Of a stretch of DNA of 64,000 nucleotides, positions 5,105 through 35,757 are shown one piece after another. The DNA is taken from contig NZ_SNWM01000001.1 of NCBI RefSeq assembly GCF_004362245.1, positions 1 to 64,000 of the forward strand, given 5' to 3'. Within the stretch, counting starts at the first letter, position 1; each line of letters begins with the position of its first letter. A model generated the notes under the pieces. That model saw only the letters and a list, made by a program, of their open reading frames with translations. It was not told the origin of the DNA and did no database searches. Made by a program: the position numbers and the translations under genes. This DNA is from Pedobacter duraquae. Lineage in GTDB: Bacteria > Bacteroidota > Bacteroidia > Sphingobacteriales > Sphingobacteriaceae.

Positions 5105-6100
5105 ATGAATCAGGAATTAATACTACGTTTATTTAAGACTATTGAGGGAGAACCTCAGGATGACATTGTCAAAGTAGCAGGTGTTATTATAGAATCCGAA
5201 CGTCAAAAAGGACACCATAAATTGGCAGATCGTTTAAATTCTATTCTTAAAAGAAATGTACAATCGTCACAATCCCTGAAAGGTGAGTTGAAAACTATTT
5301 TTGGGGGAAGTGTAAGTATTCCGGTTGATAAACGCAAAAATGTACCATTGGCAACAGAGGTTTATCGTGATGACCTTCGGCATGAAATGATCCTTTCCAA
5401 AGAGATTGAAGCAAAAATTTCTCGCATAGAAAAAGAGTTCGTAGCCAGAGAACGTTTGGCAAATTTTGGATTGCAGCCCAGGAAGCGTATTCTTTTATAC
5501 GGTAGCCCGGGATGTGGGAAAAGTATGGCAGCCGAACGTATTGCTTGGAATATCGGCCTTCCTTTTTTAAAAGTAAGGTTTGAGGCTATAGTTTCTTCTT
5601 ACCTGGGGGAATCAGCTACAAATCTTACCAATATTTTTGCTGCCGTCGAACATTTTCCTTGCGTATTATTATTGGATGAATTTGATTTTATAGCCAAATC
5701 CAGAGACGGCAAACAAGATGTTGGAGAAATGCACCGGGTTGTAAATATCCTCTTGAATGTACTTGAAGACTATAAGGGTGAAGGAATTATCATAGCAACT
5801 ACGAATTTACAGGGTATGTTGGACAAAGCGCTTTTTAGGAGGTTTGACGATATTATCGAAATGCCCAAACCAGGTCATCAGGAAATCGCCATGATACTGA
5901 AGGCAACTCTGGCAACAATAAAAATTTCAAGGCAGGTTAAGTTTGCGGAAATAGCCAAACAAATGGACAAGTTTTCTAGCGCGCTAATTGTTAAAATAGC
6001 AAATGATGCAGCAAAACTTGCAGTGATTGAAGGTAGAAATGAAGTAGAAGAGGCTGATTTCATGAACTCTTTAAAAGAAAACGAAAATTATCATCAATAA
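5105..6100 (+). CDS. ietA: AAA+ ATPase, IetA-type component of IetAS
   Basis: A 331-aa AAA+ ATPase. Walker A is GSPGCGKS at residues 133-140, Walker B LLLDEFD at 188-194, sensor-1 TTN at 232-234 and an arginine-finger-like RRFD at 245-248. The first 100 residues form a helical N-terminal region typical of IetA-type proteins. The gene is followed 17 bp later by a subtilisin-like protease on the same strand. An AAA ATPase plus S8 protease is the IetAS pair, described as a stability/toxin-antitoxin locus of the Agrobacterium Ti plasmid and later as an anti-phage system. In that pair the ATPase restrains or gates the protease. The symbol is by gene pairing and domain content, not by alignment. 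Confidence 0.8.
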   Translation: MNQELILRLFKTIEGEPQDDIVKVAGVIIESERQKGHHKLADRLNSILKRNVQSSQSLKGELKTIFGGSVSIPVDKRKNVPLATEVYRDDLRHEMILSKEIEAKISRIEKEFVARERLANFGLQPRKRILLYGSPGCGKSMAAERIAWNIGLPFLKVRFEAIVSSYLGESATNLTNIFAAVEHFPCVLLLDEFDFIAKSRDGKQDVGEMHRVVNILLNVLEDYKGEGIIIATTNLQGMLDKALFRRFDDIIEMPKPGHQEIAMILKATLATIKISRQVKFAEIAKQMDKFSSALIVKIANDAAKLAVIEGRNEVEEADFMNSLKENENYHQ

Positions 6101-6117
6101 AACCAAATGCTCTCAAA

Positions 6118-8628
6118 ATGGCGAAATTCCCACATTTGCCGCTCAAAACTATTTTAGACGGAAATTATAAATTTAAAGGCTTTCCTGGTAGTGGAAAAGC
6201 ACCGCGGTCCTTACAGAATCTGGAAAACAGAAAGGCTCATGGTGACTCCTTGTCAAAAATGATTGAGGGTGTCGAACTGTTCAATAAAGATATTTTGCAA
6301 TGGCGAGCGGAACAAGGCTTACCTGAGCTTCCAGACAGCGGAGTTATACCCGTGCTTTTGCAGGTAGACCCCAATGTTTTTGACATCGAAACGCTCAAAG
6401 GCTTCGGAATGGAAATTCTTGCCGAAGAAGAAAGAGGTTTTGTTTTAGGGGCAAGCGTAGATCAGTTCAAATCGTTCAAATCAAAAATAGAAGATTTTGA
6501 AAAGAATGAAAATAAAGGAACTGCGTTACTTTGGGAAATTGAACAAGGCAACCAATGGAGGCCCCAGTATATTCTCAGCGAAGAACTGTATTGGAAATGG
6601 CTTGATGGAGTTGAGGAAGAAGAGGAATTTGTAGTGGATATTTCAATTGCCTGTTATATCAAGAAAACAGAACAACCGACCCGCTCTGACCGAACTAACG
6701 AGAAGTCTTTCAAAAAGAGTTTATCCGCTTGGTATGAAAGGGCCTTCCTTGTGGACATTGCACATGATGAATTGGTGATGGAACGTCAAAGCCAGGTTCA
6801 GACCTTTATTGAGTTAGGTGGGGGTAATATAGTAGGTGAGTTTGTCGAATATCAGGACAGTTTTGGTTTTAGAGCTGAAATTTCCGGCCGGGCACTGAAA
6901 GATATTGTATTGAACTATCCTTATGTTTTTGAGATAGCTGAACATTGCGAAATGGACAGCCATACACTAACCCATGAAGATTTTGGCGAGGTAAACTGTA
7001 CCATCCATACCCCTAGCAATGATTCGCCTAAGATATGTATTATAGATAGTGGCATTCAGCAAAACCACTTATTGTTAGCGCCTGCTATGCTTCCGGAAAG
7101 GTCGATAAATTTTGTTCCAAATGAAACCACCTTCGCAGATCAGGTTTCTAATGGTGGCCATGGAACTAAGGTAGCTGGTGCGATTTTATATGGTGCGGCT
7201 ATACCTCGTGAAGGAGAGCTTCAGGCGCCGTTTTATCTTACCAACATGCGGGTTTTAGATGCGAATAAGGCAATGTCGAGTTTGCTATTTGAACCTGCGC
7301 TGATGCATACAATTGTAGATCAAAACACTGACACTACCCTTTTTAATCTTTCAATTAATGCGAGAATACCTTGTAGGACCAGACACATGTCCCAATGGGC
7401 ATCGGCCATTGATATGATTTGCCATGAGGGAGAAAAAGTTTTCGTAGTATCTGCTGGCAATATCAATGACAGTAATCATTTGGCCAATAGGCCTGGTATC
7501 AAAGAACATTTGGCTGCCAATCGACATTACCCGAGCTATTTGCTTGAACCTTCATCAAGAATTGCAGACCCGGCCCAGAGTATATTTTCCATCACAGTGG
7601 GTTCTGTTTGTATTGATGGGTTTGATGATCCAGATCGAATGTCATTTGGTAAAAAGGACTTCCCTTCTTCTTTCTCCAGATCTGGATTGGGCATGTGGGG
7701 AGCAATTAAACCAGAGGTGGTCGAATATGGAGGAGACTGGATAAGAGAGAAAGCAGGCAGTAATCTTACTATAATTCCCGAAACCTCACCTGAACTTGTA
7801 AAAACTGGTCTGCACGGAGTAGGCCGCGTTGATATCGGAACTTCCTTCAGTGCGCCGAAAGTGACGCATATTTTAGGGCATCTTCAAAAGCTCTTCCCTA
7901 AAGAAAATGCGCTTTTCTATAAGGCTTTATTAATCCAATCCGCGCGTTTGCCCGAAGCGATCTTTCAAAATCCTCAATCAAGGCATTTGAGATACATGGG
8001 TTATGGCATTCCAAATTTAGATCGGGCTATCGACAATACCCCTTTTCGAATCACTTTTACCGAGAGTGGCAAAATAGCTGCAAAAAAAGCGAAAATTTTT
8101 TCTGTAAAAATTCCGCCGGAGTTGCGTAAGCAGGGTGAGGCTTATGATATTTTAATTGAGGTTTCGCTATGCTATTCTGCTGAACCTAGGAGAACAAGGA
8201 AAAACATCCGATCTTATTTATCTACCTGGCTGACATGGGACTCCAGTAAATTGGGACAAAGTGTACAGTCATTTCAGTCGGATGTGCTGAAAGATATGGT
8301 AGATAGTAGTTTGGATCAGGACGATCAAGAACCTGAGGACCCACACTCTATAAAATGGTGTATCTGGAGCCATAGTAATTGGGGGAAAATCAAGGACCTC
8401 AGGCGCCAGGCCAGTGCTAATCAAAAAGACTGGACTGTTTTGAAATCATTTGACTTGCCCAGCGAGCTTTCGTTTGCAGTCATTGGACGCAAAGGTTGGG
8501 AAAATGACCTGCATAAAGAGATTCCATATTCTTTTGTAGTAAGTTTTGAAATACTAAACGCAGAAATTGAAATATATGAAATTATGCAAAAGGTTAATAT
8601 AGAAGTTCCCGTTAGGGCAACAACATAA
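6118..8628 (+). CDS. ietS: S8 subtilisin-like serine protease, IetS-type component
   Basis: An 836-aa protein with a complete S8 catalytic triad: Asp310 in ICIIDSG, His348 in GGHGT and Ser576 in GTSFSAP, plus oxyanion-hole Asn448 in SAGN. No signal peptide is visible, so it should act in the cytoplasm, unlike degradative subtilisins. The first 300 residues are unlike a classical propeptide and may sense the trigger or bind the ATPase. The last 200 residues, after the protease domain, are beta-rich. The 17-bp gap to the ATPase gene indicates an operon. Substrate is unknown; in this family the protease is the toxic effector. Confidence 0.8.
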   Translation: MAKFPHLPLKTILDGNYKFKGFPGSGKAPRSLQNLENRKAHGDSLSKMIEGVELFNKDILQWRAEQGLPELPDSGVIPVLLQVDPNVFDIETLKGFGMEILAEEERGFVLGASVDQFKSFKSKIEDFEKNENKGTALLWEIEQGNQWRPQYILSEELYWKWLDGVEEEEEFVVDISIACYIKKTEQPTRSDRTNEKSFKKSLSAWYERAFLVDIAHDELVMERQSQVQTFIELGGGNIVGEFVEYQDSFGFRAEISGRALKDIVLNYPYVFEIAEHCEMDSHTLTHEDFGEVNCTIHTPSNDSPKICIIDSGIQQNHLLLAPAMLPERSINFVPNETTFADQVSNGGHGTKVAGAILYGAAIPREGELQAPFYLTNMRVLDANKAMSSLLFEPALMHTIVDQNTDTTLFNLSINARIPCRTRHMSQWASAIDMICHEGEKVFVVSAGNINDSNHLANRPGIKEHLAANRHYPSYLLEPSSRIADPAQSIFSITVGSVCIDGFDDPDRMSFGKKDFPSSFSRSGLGMWGAIKPEVVEYGGDWIREKAGSNLTIIPETSPELVKTGLHGVGRVDIGTSFSAPKVTHILGHLQKLFPKENALFYKALLIQSARLPEAIFQNPQSRHLRYMGYGIPNLDRAIDNTPFRITFTESGKIAAKKAKIFSVKIPPELRKQGEAYDILIEVSLCYSAEPRRTRKNIRSYLSTWLTWDSSKLGQSVQSFQSDVLKDMVDSSLDQDDQEPEDPHSIKWCIWSHSNWGKIKDLRRQASANQKDWTVLKSFDLPSELSFAVIGRKGWENDLHKEIPYSFVVSFEILNAEIEIYEIMQKVNIEVPVRATT

Positions 8629-8942: not shown

Positions 8943-10064
8943 TTAAAAGTTATCCTGCGGATGAAACTGCATGAGCTTTCCGTCAGGATTAATCCTCAAG
9001 GAATAATAGTTTCCGTTGTAGTAATGCCCCTTGTCGTTTTGAATATGAAAACCCTTGCCTTGATCCAGACGCTCTTCAATAGCCTGGTGGTTCTGCTCCA
9101 AAACAATATTGATGATGCGCCGGATGTCTTTGAGGGTATACTGGAAGCCTGTTCCCTGTCCCTTGGACGATCCGTTGATCAAAAAATCCTTATAATGTCT
9201 GAGATAGATATGGATAAAGCGTTCAAAGTCCCAATAGATCTGGTGCCTCCATCCCCATAGCGTCAGCACCTCGGATTCAAATCCGTAAATCAGTTTCATA
9301 AGTTCTCTCCATGCAGGTTCATTATAAACCTTAAGTTTATCGATATGCTTTTCCGCTATACCGAGATGACGGCATATAAATTTCGTTCGCTCCCTTCGCC
9401 TGTTTCCAAGAGCCCTATTGACCAGCTTGCGGGAAGTGCTGCCCTTTTCATCAACACTAGCATAGGTTTTGAACAAAGTGAGCACTACATCATCAAAAAA
9501 ATATCCGGTATCGGGGTCGATCAAATATTGCTGCTTATCTCCTTCGGTTATGCGCTGGCGATCCAACAATAACATCAGGGCATAATATTGCCTTTTCTCT
9601 CCGGCAATCAATGGGATGCCTTCTTTGATCCGGTTATTGAAATTCATGTACTGCATGCGCTCACCGTCAAGTAGACTGGGACTAAAATCAAGGGTAATCG
9701 TATTAGGAATATCCTTGGTCTGAGTATTATCATACTGATTGGCAATCGGACCAAGGTCCATGGTACTTAAGCTCCTGATATCGTGCACGTAAAAACCATC
9801 CGACTTTAATAGTTTATTGGTTTCCGGATCTTGCAGCGCGCCGTCCAAAATGATCAGGCCATCCTCGTATGGAATTTCCCCGGAATTGGTCTGCGCCTTC
9901 AGTGCAGCACGTTGGGAAGGCGTATATATAATATAGCCATATACGGTGGATCCGTACTTATTGAATGCTTCTGATCCGAACTTGAAATCAAAAATAGCAT
10001 ACCGGTCGTATTGGCCGATCTGCATGAATATCGTTTGTAGCGAATACTTAAGTTCTTCTTTCAT
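8943..10064 (-). CDS. Uncharacterised 373-aa protein in a defence neighbourhood
   Basis: I do not recognise the family. The protein is cytosolic (no signal or membrane segments) and rich in aromatic residues. The N-terminal half is beta-rich (YDRYAIFDFKFGSEAF, VYGYIIYTPSQ, GLIILDG). Residues 275-290 read FERFIHIYLRHYKDF, and the C-terminus contains several His/Tyr-rich strands (GFHIQNDKGHYYNGNYYS). It lies between IetAS and the DUF6119/helicase pair but is transcribed against IetAS. A nuclease or sensor role is only a guess; no catalytic motif is clear. Confidence 0.6.
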   Translation of the reverse strand: MKEELKYSLQTIFMQIGQYDRYAIFDFKFGSEAFNKYGSTVYGYIIYTPSQRAALKAQTNSGEIPYEDGLIILDGALQDPETNKLLKSDGFYVHDIRSLSTMDLGPIANQYDNTQTKDIPNTITLDFSPSLLDGERMQYMNFNNRIKEGIPLIAGEKRQYYALMLLLDRQRITEGDKQQYLIDPDTGYFFDDVVLTLFKTYASVDEKGSTSRKLVNRALGNRRRERTKFICRHLGIAEKHIDKLKVYNEPAWRELMKLIYGFESEVLTLWGWRHQIYWDFERFIHIYLRHYKDFLINGSSKGQGTGFQYTLKDIRRIINIVLEQNHQAIEERLDQGKGFHIQNDKGHYYNGNYYSLRINPDGKLMQFHPQDNF

Positions 10065-10715: not shown

Positions 10716-12503
10716 TTATGCCCGAGTAATTTGGAATGTTTTTAGTTCATAGAAACTGGTTTGCATTTCTGCAGAGCAGGTAACGAGTGAAAAACGGGCA
10801 ATATTTGAATCATATAGCGCAACATTATCCTGTATCGCCAAATCTACCGCTAATTGCGAAGCTGTAGCAAAAACATAGATAGGTTTCTTCGCTAAAAATA
10901 AGTTATAAAATTCCTCACTTGTCAAATTATCCACGGATCTTCCTTTAGTGACCAGCGCATCGTAAATACCGTTAAAAAAAGTACGCTGCTTAGCGGAAAT
11001 TGCCTGGCTGAGTCTGCGGGCGCTAATCAAGATTTGATTGGTAAGTTCTCTCACTCTTGAAGTAAAACTGTGCTTAACATGGATCAGATATACTTCATTA
11101 GCGGTTATATGCAAGATATCACAAAGTTCAACTCCATCGATAATAACAGTGTCGCATACTATGTAACCGGGCATATTGTCATAGAGCATATTGTAGGATC
11201 CTTCTTTGCTAAATTTCATTTTGACGGTATCAAAAGTCCAGCTTTCGCTCAAAATACCGGATGTCAGACGTGAACTTTTCATTATTCTTTCTGTCTGAGC
11301 CATCAAACTTTCTACAAAAGTATCTTTTAGAAGGTACCATTTACCATCTACCAAAAAAACAGCGTCACCACGCCATGAAAACTCGGCGTTGAAATGGAAC
11401 ATAAACCCTGAGCTTGCCGTCTGCTTGTTCCCAACATAACATTGGATATTGACGCCATATAAATACGCAATAATTTTACCCTCATTATTTCCATTCAACT
11501 CATAAGCCCGCTCAATTACTTTCCTGTAAAGTTCAGCTTTGTCATATACCGTTGCGAAATGCCCATCCTTTTTCTTGCCTGTTTCAGTTTTTTCGACAAG
11601 ATCATAATGATCGGCTTCATAGAAGGCTTCAATTTTATTTGGATTGCAGAAGTCAAACTCAAATATATCACGTGGATCGATGCTTGTACGCAGTAGATAT
11701 GGTATATTGTTATAAATTTTTTCCCTCAATAATCCATTAAGTTCTTCCAGTACTAACCTATCGCGGATGTGAATATAGGAACTTAAATAATCTTTTGGAG
11801 CCAGCGTCATTATGGTGCTGAGCTCACCGACAATTTGATGCAATTTTTCAAAATCTACCTCCTTATTGATTTTAAATCCAGCACCCGCCACAATCTGCAA
11901 CTTTTCAGCTGTCTTAGCTAATAAAAACGAAAAATATTCGTCACTTGTGGTACTGGAGAGGCGGATATGAAGTTCCTTTGGGATTTTGCCAAATTGCAAA
12001 TAATTTATCATTCTGTAATTGTCCCTATATTGTTCGCTTAAGCCTGCTCGCTGCCCTGTCATCCCCCTGGATTTAGTTGATGTAGCCTCATCCTCTTCCA
12101 GAGAGATAATTTTGTCGTAGGTCAAAAGTCCGTAAAGGTGGTCGATAAAATTTGCAATCAACCAATATGCCGAGCCTCCAACTATTGCAAATAACTCATG
12201 CTCCGTTTCCATAAACAATACCAGATTCACTTTGGTCTGCTGAAATTCTGCACCTTCCTTTAATTCATTAGGAAGAAAAGTCGACCAGTCCGAATCTTTG
12301 TCGGCAACACGATATTGATAAAGGTAGTAGGTAAATTCATTTTTCTGAACGCTGGGAATTCTGAGTTGAGACTGATCCAACGGACGGTTCCGTTTCTGAT
12401 ATGATCTCAAAATTATGTGCCTAATAATTGTCATGGTATCGGGCAGGCCCCGCAATGATCCATGAGTTTTATCGATTTTAAATATGTTGGGTACTATTGT
12501 CAT
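10716..12503 (-). CDS. DUF6119 / TIGR04141-like protein
   Basis: A 595-aa cytosolic protein. The second half carries the signature I associate with DUF6119/TIGR04141: EGSYNMLYDNMPGYIVCD (about 434-451), ELCDIL (459-464) and LIHVKHSF (473-480), followed by a helical stretch (RVRELTNQILISARRL). Asp462 and Lys477 are spaced like the acid and Lys of a PD-(D/E)xK-type nuclease fold, with His475 where Glu is usual. The family is sporadic and concentrated in defence islands. It lies 163 bp downstream of the helicase on the same strand and probably works with it. Function is inferred, not shown. Confidence 0.65.
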   Translation of the reverse strand: MTIVPNIFKIDKTHGSLRGLPDTMTIIRHIILRSYQKRNRPLDQSQLRIPSVQKNEFTYYLYQYRVADKDSDWSTFLPNELKEGAEFQQTKVNLVLFMETEHELFAIVGGSAYWLIANFIDHLYGLLTYDKIISLEEDEATSTKSRGMTGQRAGLSEQYRDNYRMINYLQFGKIPKELHIRLSSTTSDEYFSFLLAKTAEKLQIVAGAGFKINKEVDFEKLHQIVGELSTIMTLAPKDYLSSYIHIRDRLVLEELNGLLREKIYNNIPYLLRTSIDPRDIFEFDFCNPNKIEAFYEADHYDLVEKTETGKKKDGHFATVYDKAELYRKVIERAYELNGNNEGKIIAYLYGVNIQCYVGNKQTASSGFMFHFNAEFSWRGDAVFLVDGKWYLLKDTFVESLMAQTERIMKSSRLTSGILSESWTFDTVKMKFSKEGSYNMLYDNMPGYIVCDTVIIDGVELCDILHITANEVYLIHVKHSFTSRVRELTNQILISARRLSQAISAKQRTFFNGIYDALVTKGRSVDNLTSEEFYNLFLAKKPIYVFATASQLAVDLAIQDNVALYDSNIARFSLVTCSAEMQTSFYELKTFQITRA

Positions 12504-12666
12504 TGAGCGTATTATTTTGAGGGGTTAAATCTGATTTTTACATCATAAGGTCTTTAGTGTATTCGTCAATCAATTGACCGACAATCTCCATTTACAGTTG
12601 TCTTTCATCAATGGCTTTCCTTGATGAATGTTTTGCATTGTGTGGAGTTGAATTTGTCTATAAATT

Positions 12667-15600
12667 TTAACAGAAAATCTTAAGCTGTGCACCCACAGAG
12701 GATACACTGTTCCAGGTTGAGCGTAGCAGGTAAACTAATTGAATAATCTCGGGTTTGACATCCGTAATATCGGATTTATTGATTTCTTTTTTGAAGGCAT
12801 TGTAATCAAACATATCTCCAACAACAAGCCAAACCTCCCGGGATGTACTTGGATTTGATATCATTTCCTTATACTTAGCGTAAAATGCATTCGCAGTAAT
12901 ATTTTTTGTGATAATGCGACTATTGACCGTGCCAATCGGTGCGAACGTCCAGGGTTTGCCCCATTTGGTTATATTCGCCTGAGGTCGCTTATCAAAGTAT
13001 GGCGTGAGGTAATCCAGGTTCTTGGTGGCCTGCCCGCAAACCTCCTGAAATACGGTAGCGGATAATGTCGCCGTAGATGCCTTAGCGTGGATGAATACCA
13101 ATCGCTTTCCGTCGGGATCTAGCGCAATAAAGTCTCCAATTTCACTGTTCAAATCATCACATACCAAATATTTGAAACCAAAAAGGTTTTCCAGAACGGC
13201 ATCTCCATACCCTGCCGCCTGTCTGCCAATCAAGCCAAAAAGAGTATCCTTATGCCAAAGATCCCCCGAAATTGGGAGGGTTGCTGAGTTACCTTTTTCA
13301 CTGGTAATTTTTGAAATACAAGCATGTGGATTGAATATTTGTTTAATATCCAGATCTCGTTTTTTACTTATCAGATTTGCTCCAGGCCTGAAAAAAAACT
13401 TATTGGCATAAATATATTCATTCCCTTTGATCACTACCCGGAAAGACTGATTTGTATTCAGATAAGCGAGCATACCGTCTTCATCTGCGAAACGGCTATT
13501 AAGCATTTCATCGAGCTCGCCACAGAGAAGTTGAAACCGCTTCTTGTCGGCAAGATAGTTCAGTTGAAAAACGAAATCCATACCATTGATTCTGAGCCTG
13601 AATTCATCATTTTCCACCAGAGCGCAAAGATCATCAAAAACAACGGCTTGGTTATCAGGGCCAAAGCTAAAGCTTTCCAGAAGCTCATCTTCTACATCCA
13701 ATAAGATAGCCGCTCCCCTAACACTATCCGGAGGATCAACCCTGCTAGCAAATCTCGCCATAAAATTATCGATAGCTGCAGTATTCACATTTGCACTCAA
13801 CTGTCCATCGATCTTATCGATCCAGGCATTCATATCCTCAAAAGAAATCCTTTTTCCGGTTGCATCAGTAATGCGGCCATTTTGAAAACCGATATATCGC
13901 CGCTTGGTTTCATTCCCATCCCGCACCTTCCCCTCAAGCCTGGCAGCAAAAAAGGAATGGTCCGCAAGTCCGGGTGCGGTATATTCAATGGCTCCAGCCT
14001 GAAGTTCTTTACTCCGCACATTCCTACCCCCGATATCAGTATTCATTAGGAAAATCTTATTGACATTTCTCTTATCCTTAAAAAGCTTCACCAATGTCTC
14101 TCGGGTCACTGGAAGAAGTTCTTCAATCTGGCGCATGGGATTGTTCTGCATACTATCGTAATAAAATACCCGCTTTTCATCTACCCTTAGCATGGTAATA
14201 CCCAGGGTCTGCTCAATAAAAATTCCATCCCTCACCAAAGGCGAGTTTTCGTATTTGATATAGAGGATAAGTAGGCAGTTGTTCCCTACCACATCATGTT
14301 TGAGAATTGAATAATCCCTTTTGCTCCACTCTTCAAGAAGCGCCGCGGCAAGATCCTGAAAACCAAGTGTTCCATCTTGAAAATAGGCATTTAGCTTTTT
14401 CTGAAAGAAAATACTCTCACATAGTGAAATCGCACTCACATCTACCAAATCCCGAAAAGCACCGTCAAAATAAAGCGTAGAGGCCTCCTTGTTTACCCGG
14501 AGTACATCGGTTATATCAAAAAGTTTCTTGCGGCTATCCACCATCTTATCATACTCCAGATAACTTCTCCATTCGTTTTTGAGTTTCACTTCATCCGTGC
14601 AGAACAGATAGGCTTTTTGATCTGGTTTTAGGCTCGGATTTCGCAGCACGCGCCCCACCTGCTGTACCAGTAGCCTTGAACTTTTAAAAGGTGCATAAAT
14701 TGCCACAATGCAAAAGTCCGGATTATCTATTCCCTCAATCAGCTTGAACTGATGAATGAAAAAATCATAATTCTGCTGAAGAGAATTATCCGGAACCTGC
14801 GAGAGCAGATCGTCTTTATCCTTAAAGTTTTGATGAATACCAGCAACCCTTTTTTTGAGTTTTTTGAGTGATGCGACCATTTTTTCTATTTCCGACTGGC
14901 TCTCACAGCGGATGATCACCTTTGGATTTTCAATTCCCTGGGCAATCAAATCTCCACTAACTTTATTGATGGCAGAAAGTAAGCCATTAACAAAAGTAAC
15001 CGGATTGAGTACTGCGGTCTCTACTTTTTGTATTTCGATCCTGCGCAGGATATTCAGCTGCTCACAGTAACTATGCTCAAGTGAAAAGAATCTAGTTTTA
15101 TCAATATTGAATACTTTATAATCATTTCGATAAGGAGTGGCTGAAAAAAGAACTGTCGGCTTTTTGAAACTTCTCACCGTTTCTCCCCAAGTATAGGCCG
15201 GTTCTTTGTGGCCTTCATCGAAAATAATGCAGTCGGTATTATTCCTCAGGTAATCAAAATTTACAGGTGAATTCACCGAAACCGTTTGCAGCGCCTGTAT
15301 GGTAGTTACGACAATAAAGGAATTATCTGTTATCGCCTGGATAACGCTATCGGCATCTGTTGGCAAAAGCGCCTCGATAACTTTTTGAGCTAGGCTGTTA
15401 CTATCCACGCCGATCTTAGTCCAAAACCGCTCTTTGATTTCGGCTAAGATTTGGAACTTAAGCGCCGTGCTTGGCGTGATGATAATGAAATTCTTATCCG
15501 GAGCTGCTACGCGGCAAAGTGCGGAAAAGACCCCTGTCTTGCCTGTTCCGGTAGGCATTTTTACCAGGAACGCCTTTGACTCAAATCCTTCGATATAATC

Positions 15601-15681
15601 TATAATGTCTTTTAGCGCATCTTTTTGATGTTGCCATAGTTGGAGGCTGTTAACAGCAAGTATTCTATTTTCTTTTTTCAT
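12667..15681 (-). CDS. SF2 DEAD/DEAH helicase with C-terminal nuclease-like domain
   Basis: A 1004-aa protein. Motif I is MPTGTGKTG (42-50), motif II DEGH (155-158), motif III SATPYR (180-185) and motif VI QVGRVLR (341-347), so the helicase core fills residues 1-400 and resembles the type III restriction/UvrB group. The remaining 600 residues have no clear helicase signature. Near the end, EIGDFIALD (847-855) followed by LVFIHAKA (861-868) gives an Asp-x14-His-Ala-Lys arrangement very like the DUF6119 partner downstream. The pair is likely a DNA-targeting defence system; the exact system name is not assigned. Confidence 0.8.
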   Translation of the reverse strand: MKKENRILAVNSLQLWQHQKDALKDIIDYIEGFESKAFLVKMPTGTGKTGVFSALCRVAAPDKNFIIITPSTALKFQILAEIKERFWTKIGVDSNSLAQKVIEALLPTDADSVIQAITDNSFIVVTTIQALQTVSVNSPVNFDYLRNNTDCIIFDEGHKEPAYTWGETVRSFKKPTVLFSATPYRNDYKVFNIDKTRFFSLEHSYCEQLNILRRIEIQKVETAVLNPVTFVNGLLSAINKVSGDLIAQGIENPKVIIRCESQSEIEKMVASLKKLKKRVAGIHQNFKDKDDLLSQVPDNSLQQNYDFFIHQFKLIEGIDNPDFCIVAIYAPFKSSRLLVQQVGRVLRNPSLKPDQKAYLFCTDEVKLKNEWRSYLEYDKMVDSRKKLFDITDVLRVNKEASTLYFDGAFRDLVDVSAISLCESIFFQKKLNAYFQDGTLGFQDLAAALLEEWSKRDYSILKHDVVGNNCLLILYIKYENSPLVRDGIFIEQTLGITMLRVDEKRVFYYDSMQNNPMRQIEELLPVTRETLVKLFKDKRNVNKIFLMNTDIGGRNVRSKELQAGAIEYTAPGLADHSFFAARLEGKVRDGNETKRRYIGFQNGRITDATGKRISFEDMNAWIDKIDGQLSANVNTAAIDNFMARFASRVDPPDSVRGAAILLDVEDELLESFSFGPDNQAVVFDDLCALVENDEFRLRINGMDFVFQLNYLADKKRFQLLCGELDEMLNSRFADEDGMLAYLNTNQSFRVVIKGNEYIYANKFFFRPGANLISKKRDLDIKQIFNPHACISKITSEKGNSATLPISGDLWHKDTLFGLIGRQAAGYGDAVLENLFGFKYLVCDDLNSEIGDFIALDPDGKRLVFIHAKASTATLSATVFQEVCGQATKNLDYLTPYFDKRPQANITKWGKPWTFAPIGTVNSRIITKNITANAFYAKYKEMISNPSTSREVWLVVGDMFDYNAFKKEINKSDITDVKPEIIQLVYLLRSTWNSVSSVGAQLKIFC

Positions 15682-35049: not shown

Positions 35050-35757
35050 TTAATACTCACTAAACTTTGCTTCTTTATGTAGTGCTGAGGGAGACAAATA
35101 GAATAACTTAATAAAAATACTTCTAGTTACATCATCTAACTCTCTTTTATTCACGGTGTTTGGATCACGTCGTGATTTAATGTAATTATTGGATACCATA
35201 TTATCAGTTAATTCTCCCACAGTTTTAATAGCAATCTCCTTCCCCATCCTATCCGCGATTCTGAATCCGAGAAGTGAAAAAGCAATTCCTGATATAGCAA
35301 TTTTCCAACCAATAAAGAAAGCCAATAAAGACAAAAGGAATATAACTATTAGCATACAAGTCAACCAGAAAGGTGGAGATAATAGAAATAGCCTCATGTC
35401 AAGTATATCTTCTAACATTTTTACTTTCTCAATTCTATTTTTACGTGGTATGATGTCCTCAATAAGAGTTTCTGGACTTAAATGTAATTTGCTTAGATTA
35501 AAAACATCAGATAATGCTCGATTAAGTTTGTAGTAAGCTTGTTGGCTCGTGCAGTCATCATTGTGTTCGAGATTGATTTTTCCGTGGATAAGGTTACACA
35601 AATCTTCAAATATTTTGACATCTGCAAGTTCGTTTTCATGAAACGAAATCTGAAATGATTGTTGAATCATCACTATAGCATCAGAAATATCTTGTAATTC
35701 CACGTGCTCAAGCAAATATTCCGATGAAATAATTGTTTCTAACAGGTTCCTTTCCAT
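35050..35757 (-). CDS. Uncharacterised membrane protein with two central TM helices
   Basis: A 235-aa protein. Residues 1-120 are a charged helical domain, then two transmembrane helices (about 130-175, LLSPPFWLTCMLIVIFLLSLLAFFIGWKIAISGIAFSLLGF), then a basic helical tail. I know no family. It lies at one end of the row of short genes at 35-36.9 kb and may be an immunity-type or toxin-sensing membrane protein; that is context only. Confidence 0.6.
   Translation of the reverse strand: MERNLLETIISSEYLLEHVELQDISDAIVMIQQSFQISFHENELADVKIFEDLCNLIHGKINLEHNDDCTSQQAYYKLNRALSDVFNLSKLHLSPETLIEDIIPRKNRIEKVKMLEDILDMRLFLLSPPFWLTCMLIVIFLLSLLAFFIGWKIAISGIAFSLLGFRIADRMGKEIAIKTVGELTDNMVSNNYIKSRRDPNTVNKRELDDVTRSIFIKLFYLSPSALHKEAKFSEY

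Follow-up and report, generated by a model that had tools for sequence, protein, structure and literature searches.

The first 64,000 nucleotides of contig NZ_SNWM01000001.1 of Pedobacter duraquae (positions 1 to 64,000, forward strand; this whole stretch is called the window below) contain, next to each other on the minus strand, the genes for a superfamily 2 (SF2) helicase of 1004 residues (12667..15681) and for a 595-residue protein of the DUF6119/TIGR04141 family (10716..12503). Conservation, profile comparison and structural models indicate that these proteins carry homologous PD-(D/E)xK-like domains, with the signature D...ExxD at strand 2, (H)xK where strand 3 ends and Q in the helix that follows. 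Taken as a whole, the data make it likely that, with these homologous domains, the helicase is a self-contained helicase-nuclease and the DUF6119 protein a separate nuclease, and that their genes adjoin through co-residence in a defence island.

A preliminary description of this DNA had noticed a D-x(n)-IH-x-K motif in both proteins, read it as a PD-(D/E)xK-like fold in which the usual Glu is His, and proposed two related catalytic or DNA-binding domains of one operon-encoded complex, perhaps processing opposite strands. Both open reading frames (ORFs) are as it described, and the residues it named (Asp850, His865 and Lys867 in the helicase; Asp462, His475 and Lys477 in the smaller protein) are correctly placed and numbered. 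The likeness to DUF6119 that it saw proved to be membership, at 72.3 bits against PF19614 (cut-off 27) and 60.2 bits against TIGR04141 (cut-off 35).

A conserved motif block in two protein families

The short form of the motif, D-x(8-18)-[ILVFYM]-H-x-K, was found in 704 of 5000 residue shuffles of the helicase and 681 of 5000 of the DUF6119 protein (about 14% each), as well as in 7 of the 41 ORFs of the window, both proteins included (5 of the other 39). By itself it is not beyond chance, and we rejected it as evidence of relatedness because it is too common. A fuller pattern, ExxD...HxK...Q, arose in only 9 and 14 of 5000 shuffles, respectively, and in three of the 41 ORFs, that is, the two proteins and 35053-35757 (minus strand). 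The last is a 234-residue ORF without a Pfam match, and its fit is probably a matter of chance.

What makes the shared motif real is its conservation. In the helicase block (13030..13155, minus strand), D843, E847, D850, F851, K867 and Q884 are unchanged in all 66 aligned rows, while H865 is His in 58, Ala in four and Val in four. In the DUF6119 block (11034..11153, minus strand), D451, E459, D462, H475, K477 and Q490 are unchanged in all 19 rows, and the same six residues are kept in three later sequences outside those rows, which come from viral contigs (L186, L187 and L190). The invariant upstream Asp, the Glu three residues before the second Asp and the Gln of the next helix were absent from the preliminary description. 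By record title, the rows come from bacteria of several phyla; some are near-identical, and the 66 rows are not 66 independent cases. The helicase alignment left out sequences with E >= 1e-100, those not extending past profile position 940, those of at most 550 residues and the repeat loci of the window, and the DUF6119 alignment left out these repeat loci and the fragment L037.

Profile comparison of the two domains

When the two domains were compared with hhalign, they matched with a probability (Prob) of 89.7, an E-value of 1.8e-6 and a score of 44.1, in a register that brings together the corresponding E, D, HxK and Q of both domains. None of the shuffled-column controls reached this score (maximum 26.1 among 60 and 20.7 among 400); the reversed control scored 16.1, and the DUF6119 profile scored 20.2 against the helicase motor and 18.3 against the helicase middle region. 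The DUF6119 protein compared with the C-terminal half of the helicase gave E 4.7e-5 (Prob 68), and smaller alignments of nine helicase and 12 DUF6119 sequences returned the same register at E 9e-4 (Prob 23). All these E-values are those of a single comparison; the hhalign filter retained 17 DUF6119 rows out of 19, and rows with more than 60% gaps were also left out. Taken singly, all of seven DUF6119 domains matched their helicase counterpart across the motif block, with scores of 19.8-40.8, and ten other proteins, namely one annotated as TnsA-like, three nucleases judged by eye and six proteins of the window, scored 10.5-19.7. A GxWY hairpin upstream of the core also aligns, weakly, between the domains (E 0.0027).

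Judged by their sequences, the C-terminal approximately 200 residues of the helicase (residues 800-1004; 12670..13284, minus strand), delimited by conservation, profile comparison and modelling, and the C-terminal part of the DUF6119 protein (residues 352-595; 10719..11450, minus strand), modelled as the GxWY hairpin followed by a restriction-endonuclease-like domain, are distantly related homologous domains. The motif can be taken as real because it is conserved at D, ExxD, K and Q and because the profile comparison stands out from its controls. For the N-terminal part of the DUF6119 protein, homology to the middle region of the helicase was considered and rejected (hhalign E 0.12).

A second tier of defence-type helicases of about 900-1000 residues (L163, L168, L169, L171, L198 and L076, the last listed as a viral contig) carries an E-x-A-D...HxK...GQ domain that matches the helicase domain at Prob 98.3 and E 1.9e-14, and the DUF6119 domain at only Prob 8.3 and E 0.004. 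Most of their middle region is unmatched by the helicase profile.

Predicted fold

Residues 371-1004 of the helicase were modelled confidently by AlphaFold from 54 sequences (53 relatives and that of the window), with a predicted local distance difference test (pLDDT) value of 88 and a predicted template-modelling score (pTM) of 0.79; ten-residue pLDDT means over residues 801-1004 were 84-96. The C-terminal domain follows the order helix-strand-strand-strand-helix-...-strand-helix-helix-strand, with helices leading to strands 838-841, 851-855 and 860-867, then helix 875-887, further helices, strand 947-954, more helices and strand 998-1003. D850 lies directly before strand 2, K867 is the last residue of strand 3 and Q884 sits in the next helix. 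The DUF6119 model shows, at low confidence, the same order of strands and helices, and this order common to both models is that of the restriction-endonuclease-like nucleases. Comparison of the two models, one of them poor, is in keeping with the likeness that had been expected.

In structural searches with VIA-align, the first eight rows for the DUF6119 model (Z 5.6-6.3) were two CdiA-CT/CdiI complexes, SfsA, AF1548, the fdxN element excision factor, EcoT38I, the BspD6I small subunit and Upx. Two of these, EcoT38I and BspD6I, have entry titles that name them restriction endonucleases; the other six entries we take to be of the PD-(D/E)xK type as well, with the fdxN element excision factor presumably being XisH. 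Entries for Hachiman (Z 4.6), McrBC, Avs4, EndoMS and LmuA appear in lower rows. Below Z 8 the tool warns of mere common arrangements, and these matches support the modelled fold without proving it. The proposed PD-(D/E)xK-like fold stands as restriction-endonuclease-like by its order of secondary structure and its remote structural neighbours. A Foldseek search against BFVD returned nothing at E <= 0.001.

For the helicase model, the VIA-align rows were taken up by the middle region, and the C-terminal domain was barely probed. This middle region (approximately residues 425-631; 13789..14409, minus strand) resembles domains of RdgC, Iml3 and RnlA, the best match being RdgC 2owy (Z 7.1, root-mean-square deviation 5.0, 190 aligned residues), which lies below Z 8 and points weakly to an RdgC-like fold.

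The putative active site

The core order of the PD-(D/E)xK superfamily and its motif IV Gln are described in an excerpt of PMC1913061. Both domains share with the superfamily the core order of strands and helices, the motif II Asp at strand 2 (D850 in 66 of 66 rows, D462 in 19 of 19), the motif III Lys on strand 3 (66 of 66 and 19 of 19) and the polar motif IV residue, a Gln, in the second core helix (Q884 in 66 of 66, Q490 in 19 of 19). Unlike the superfamily, they have His at the position of the motif III acid (Ala or Val in eight helicases), as well as an invariant upstream D and ExxD. Because the motif III acid is missing, we call these domains PD-(D/E)xK-like and not canonical members. 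The statement that the usual Glu is His does not hold as it was put: the His itself is replaced in eight of the 66 helicases, and the invariant acids that the two families share are those of D...ExxD, upstream. With no acid in motif III and a His that helicases can do without, these upstream acids probably form part of the metal site.

Several observations weigh against the nuclease assignment and the homology on which it builds. The acid that defines canonical PD-(D/E)xK enzymes is absent from motif III. The model of DUF6119 residues 352-595, made from five sequences, is poor (pLDDT 59.8, pTM 0.57), every structural match to it stays below Z 8, and a Rag GTPase (Z 4.8) and CD38 (Z 4.4) are mixed among its lower VIA-align rows. 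Foldseek against the PDB gave no match at E <= 0.001 for either model; profile searches of the PDB matched nothing, and of two sequence searches of the PDB one gave no match and the other reached the helicase motor only. The profile similarity is confined to about 57 core columns, the last approximately 100 residues of the two domains do not align (hhalign E 0.18), the weakest single DUF6119 domain, that of L186 (19.8), scores about as high as the best control (19.7), and a direct BLASTP comparison of the pair falls short of significance (E 1.0), its best segment covering the motif. On the side of function, six of the ten plasmid helicase loci (see below) have no annotated defence neighbour, and the domain might bind DNA without being catalytic.

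PD-(D/E)xK families that have lost catalytic residues exist. That the present domains, though homologous and restriction-endonuclease-like, are catalytically dead and serve to bind DNA or a partner would fit the absent motif III acid and the loss of the His in eight of the 66 helicases. We nevertheless consider it unlikely, because D, ExxD, K and Q never vary across the 66 and 19 rows, which span several phyla, as would be expected of an active site that is kept. In the families with altered motif III in the excerpt of PMC1913061 the acid remains and it is the Lys that is shifted or lost, opposite to what is seen here. A convergent or chance likeness of a short motif in unrelated folds, to which the common bare motif, the BLASTP result and the shortness of the profile match might be ascribed, is very improbable given a profile score far above those of 460 shuffled controls and ten other proteins, the same order of strands and helices, and six conserved positions in one register.

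Read as nucleases, the two families may belong to something larger. We suggest tentatively that DUF6119/TIGR04141 and the C-terminal domain of widespread defence-type helicases form an unrecognized nuclease clan in which the missing motif III acid has moved upstream (D...ExxD...HxK...Q), the module occurring in three settings: fused to helicases, alone, and in type I restriction operons.

Co-occurrence of the two genes

The DUF6119 gene lies downstream of the helicase gene on the same strand, after a gap of 163 nucleotides. This arrangement and the homology of the domains would suit one operon that encodes a two-nuclease complex, as had been proposed, but the pairing is not conserved. Among 59 helicase loci, defined as relatives on genome contigs at E < 1e-50 with truncated or split genes included, a DUF6119 gene is present in one (L113), and in none of the 45 that are flanked by 4 kb or more on each side; it is likewise missing beside the helicase in the ten loci read on plasmids and in three other genomes (G287, G186 and G110). 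Conversely, the helicase occurs in one of 21 other DUF6119 loci (again L113), for each of which 5.9 to 19 kb were read. The plasmid loci are 10 of 24 matching records for the helicase and 10 of 22 for DUF6119, one of the latter (Caballeronia) being unannotated. The nearest DUF6119 relatives, in G280 (64% identical) and G004 (44%), lack a helicase of this kind over the 19 kb read, and in G280 the whole genome is free of helicase matches. Nor is there a DUF6119 gene within 6 kb of the nearest fully flanked helicase relative, L105 (57%). The sequence of L106 ends less than 400 nucleotides downstream of its helicase and says nothing about a DUF6119 gene downstream there.

L113 is a Phycisphaerae contig in which a DUF6119 gene of another subgroup lies upstream of the helicase with three ORFs between them, in a same-strand series of five ORFs separated by no more than 154 nucleotides; the contig continues for 2.8 kb downstream. 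One of the ORFs between the pair (L113 3419-3865, plus strand) encodes a 148-residue protein whose EIKHS stretch appears PD-(D/E)xK-like by eye.

Two nearby pairs in 60 loci, that of the window included, probably exceed random placement, yet this is what defence islands produce and is far below what obligate partners would show. The single same-strand run of L113 speaks for one complex acting on opposite strands, while the absence of a partner from nearly all helicase and DUF6119 loci, including a genome that has the closest DUF6119 relative and no helicase match, speaks against it; a promoter-like site is present in the 163-nucleotide gap, but the region is no richer in such sites than shuffles. 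We regard such a complex as highly improbable. Of the proposal of two related domains in one complex, the relatedness holds, by conservation and profile homology, and the complex is not supported. Co-residence of two separate defence genes in a defence island is a more likely account of their adjacency here than one machine.

Family assignments and known systems

The motor of the helicase (residues 13-350; 14632..15645, minus strand) matches Pfam ResIII (13-185) and Helicase_C (249-348), and its motifs TGxGK, DEGH and QxxGRxxR are invariant in nine aligned sequences. Its C-terminal half belongs to no Pfam family, and among 54 relatives no Pfam family matched more than two at E <= 0.1. The PADLOC profile PDC-S71 covers residues 524-1004 (E 8.8e-45; profile positions 116-587 of 589) and is also matched by the relatives L106 and L113. 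PDC-S71 is a single-gene phage-defence candidate that exists as a profile-library entry only, with no description of the C-terminal domain attached, and by this match the helicase is itself a single-gene defence candidate. The family is rare: the PDC-S71 profile matched 2 of 296 genomes of a phylum sample, the window's own included, and the helicase matched 27 of 395 genomes of a class sample, mostly by the motor only. DUF6119 (PF19614) and TIGR04141 are annotated as of unknown function, and a nuclease-like domain is proposed for them here. In the open-licence literature of PubMed Central, no paper names PDC-S71, TIGR04141 and 'sporadically distributed protein' go unmentioned, and DUF6119 occurs in one unrelated paper. 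Two C-terminal Pfam matches of the DUF6119 protein, Tox-MPTase5 (E 0.11) and DUF6974 (E 0.15), were rejected as sub-threshold.

The closest parallel is Hachiman HamAB, which likewise joins an SF2 helicase with a PD-(D/E)xK-type nuclease (DUF1837). According to an excerpt of PMC12278908, its helicase controls the nuclease, and mutating E138 and K140 of HamA ablates defence. In contrast to Hachiman, the nuclease-like domain is here fused to the helicase and has HxK instead of ExK. Membership in Hachiman was rejected: the HamB profile matches residues 31-159 of the motor only, and no Pfam match to DUF1837 at E <= 1 was found in the DUF6119 protein or in the 373-residue protein encoded next to it, and none in the helicase.

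Some relatives have defence genes around them. The helicase of L106 (Pedobacter agri, 68%) lies beside DISARM DrmA/DrmB, that of L105 (Chryseobacterium) beside a DRT UG10 reverse transcriptase and Ptu-like genes, and four of the ten plasmid copies have annotated defence neighbours (AbiV, a SIR2 family protein, Avs4 and retron Ec78 PtuAB). The DUF6119 gene stands between hsdS and hsdR of type I restriction operons in four of nine annotated plasmid loci (L177, L178, L179 and L182), which is not the case in the window. Viral scans with three DUF6119 query sets, a scan of a phage collection and an initial scan of genome contigs with the helicase alone yielded nothing useful.

Proposed mechanism and implications

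With Hachiman as a working analogy for the helicase, the SF2 motor would load the protein on foreign or damaged DNA and translocate, the middle region may hold the DNA, and the C-terminal domain would cut it. In both proteins, the invariant acids and the Lys would bind metal and cut DNA phosphodiesters, with the His as a putative accessory residue. The DUF6119 protein would act as a separate, independent nuclease, for which its N-terminal approximately 350 residues could provide recognition or control, and which would have been recruited into type I restriction operons in some bacteria. This gives a testable nuclease assignment, with candidate residues named, to a family whose sole description so far is 'sporadically distributed', with no function known; such an assignment would also explain the DUF6119 genes in type I restriction operons and viral contigs. 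The single-gene helicases, so far a profile-level defence candidate, are marked as probable helicase-nucleases.

Other genes of the window

The next gene downstream of the DUF6119 gene (8943-10064, minus strand) encodes the 373-residue protein, which has no Pfam, PADLOC or NCBIfam match at E <= 1; in L180, too, a protein is encoded beside the DUF6119 gene, but homology of the two neighbours was rejected (E 0.17). An IetA/IetS-like pair of an AAA ATPase and an S8 peptidase follows at 5105-8628 (plus strand; PADLOC IetA E 3.4e-80, IetS E 2.8e-53), far below the NCBIfam equivalog cut-offs. In L180 (1-6518, Paracoccus plasmid pAMI8), a DUF6119 gene shares one same-strand run with genes for an ATP-binding protein, an S8 peptidase and a 446-residue protein, and the window likewise has IetAS-like genes near its DUF6119 gene. 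The segment 21597-24774 (minus strand) contains a gene for a SIR2-like protein (SIR2_2, E 1.1e-17) that is also matched by the PADLOC ThsA models and, upstream of it on the same strand, genes for two proteins that appear AbiTii-like by eye. A look-alike of the one with 308 residues adjoins the DUF6119 gene in L030.

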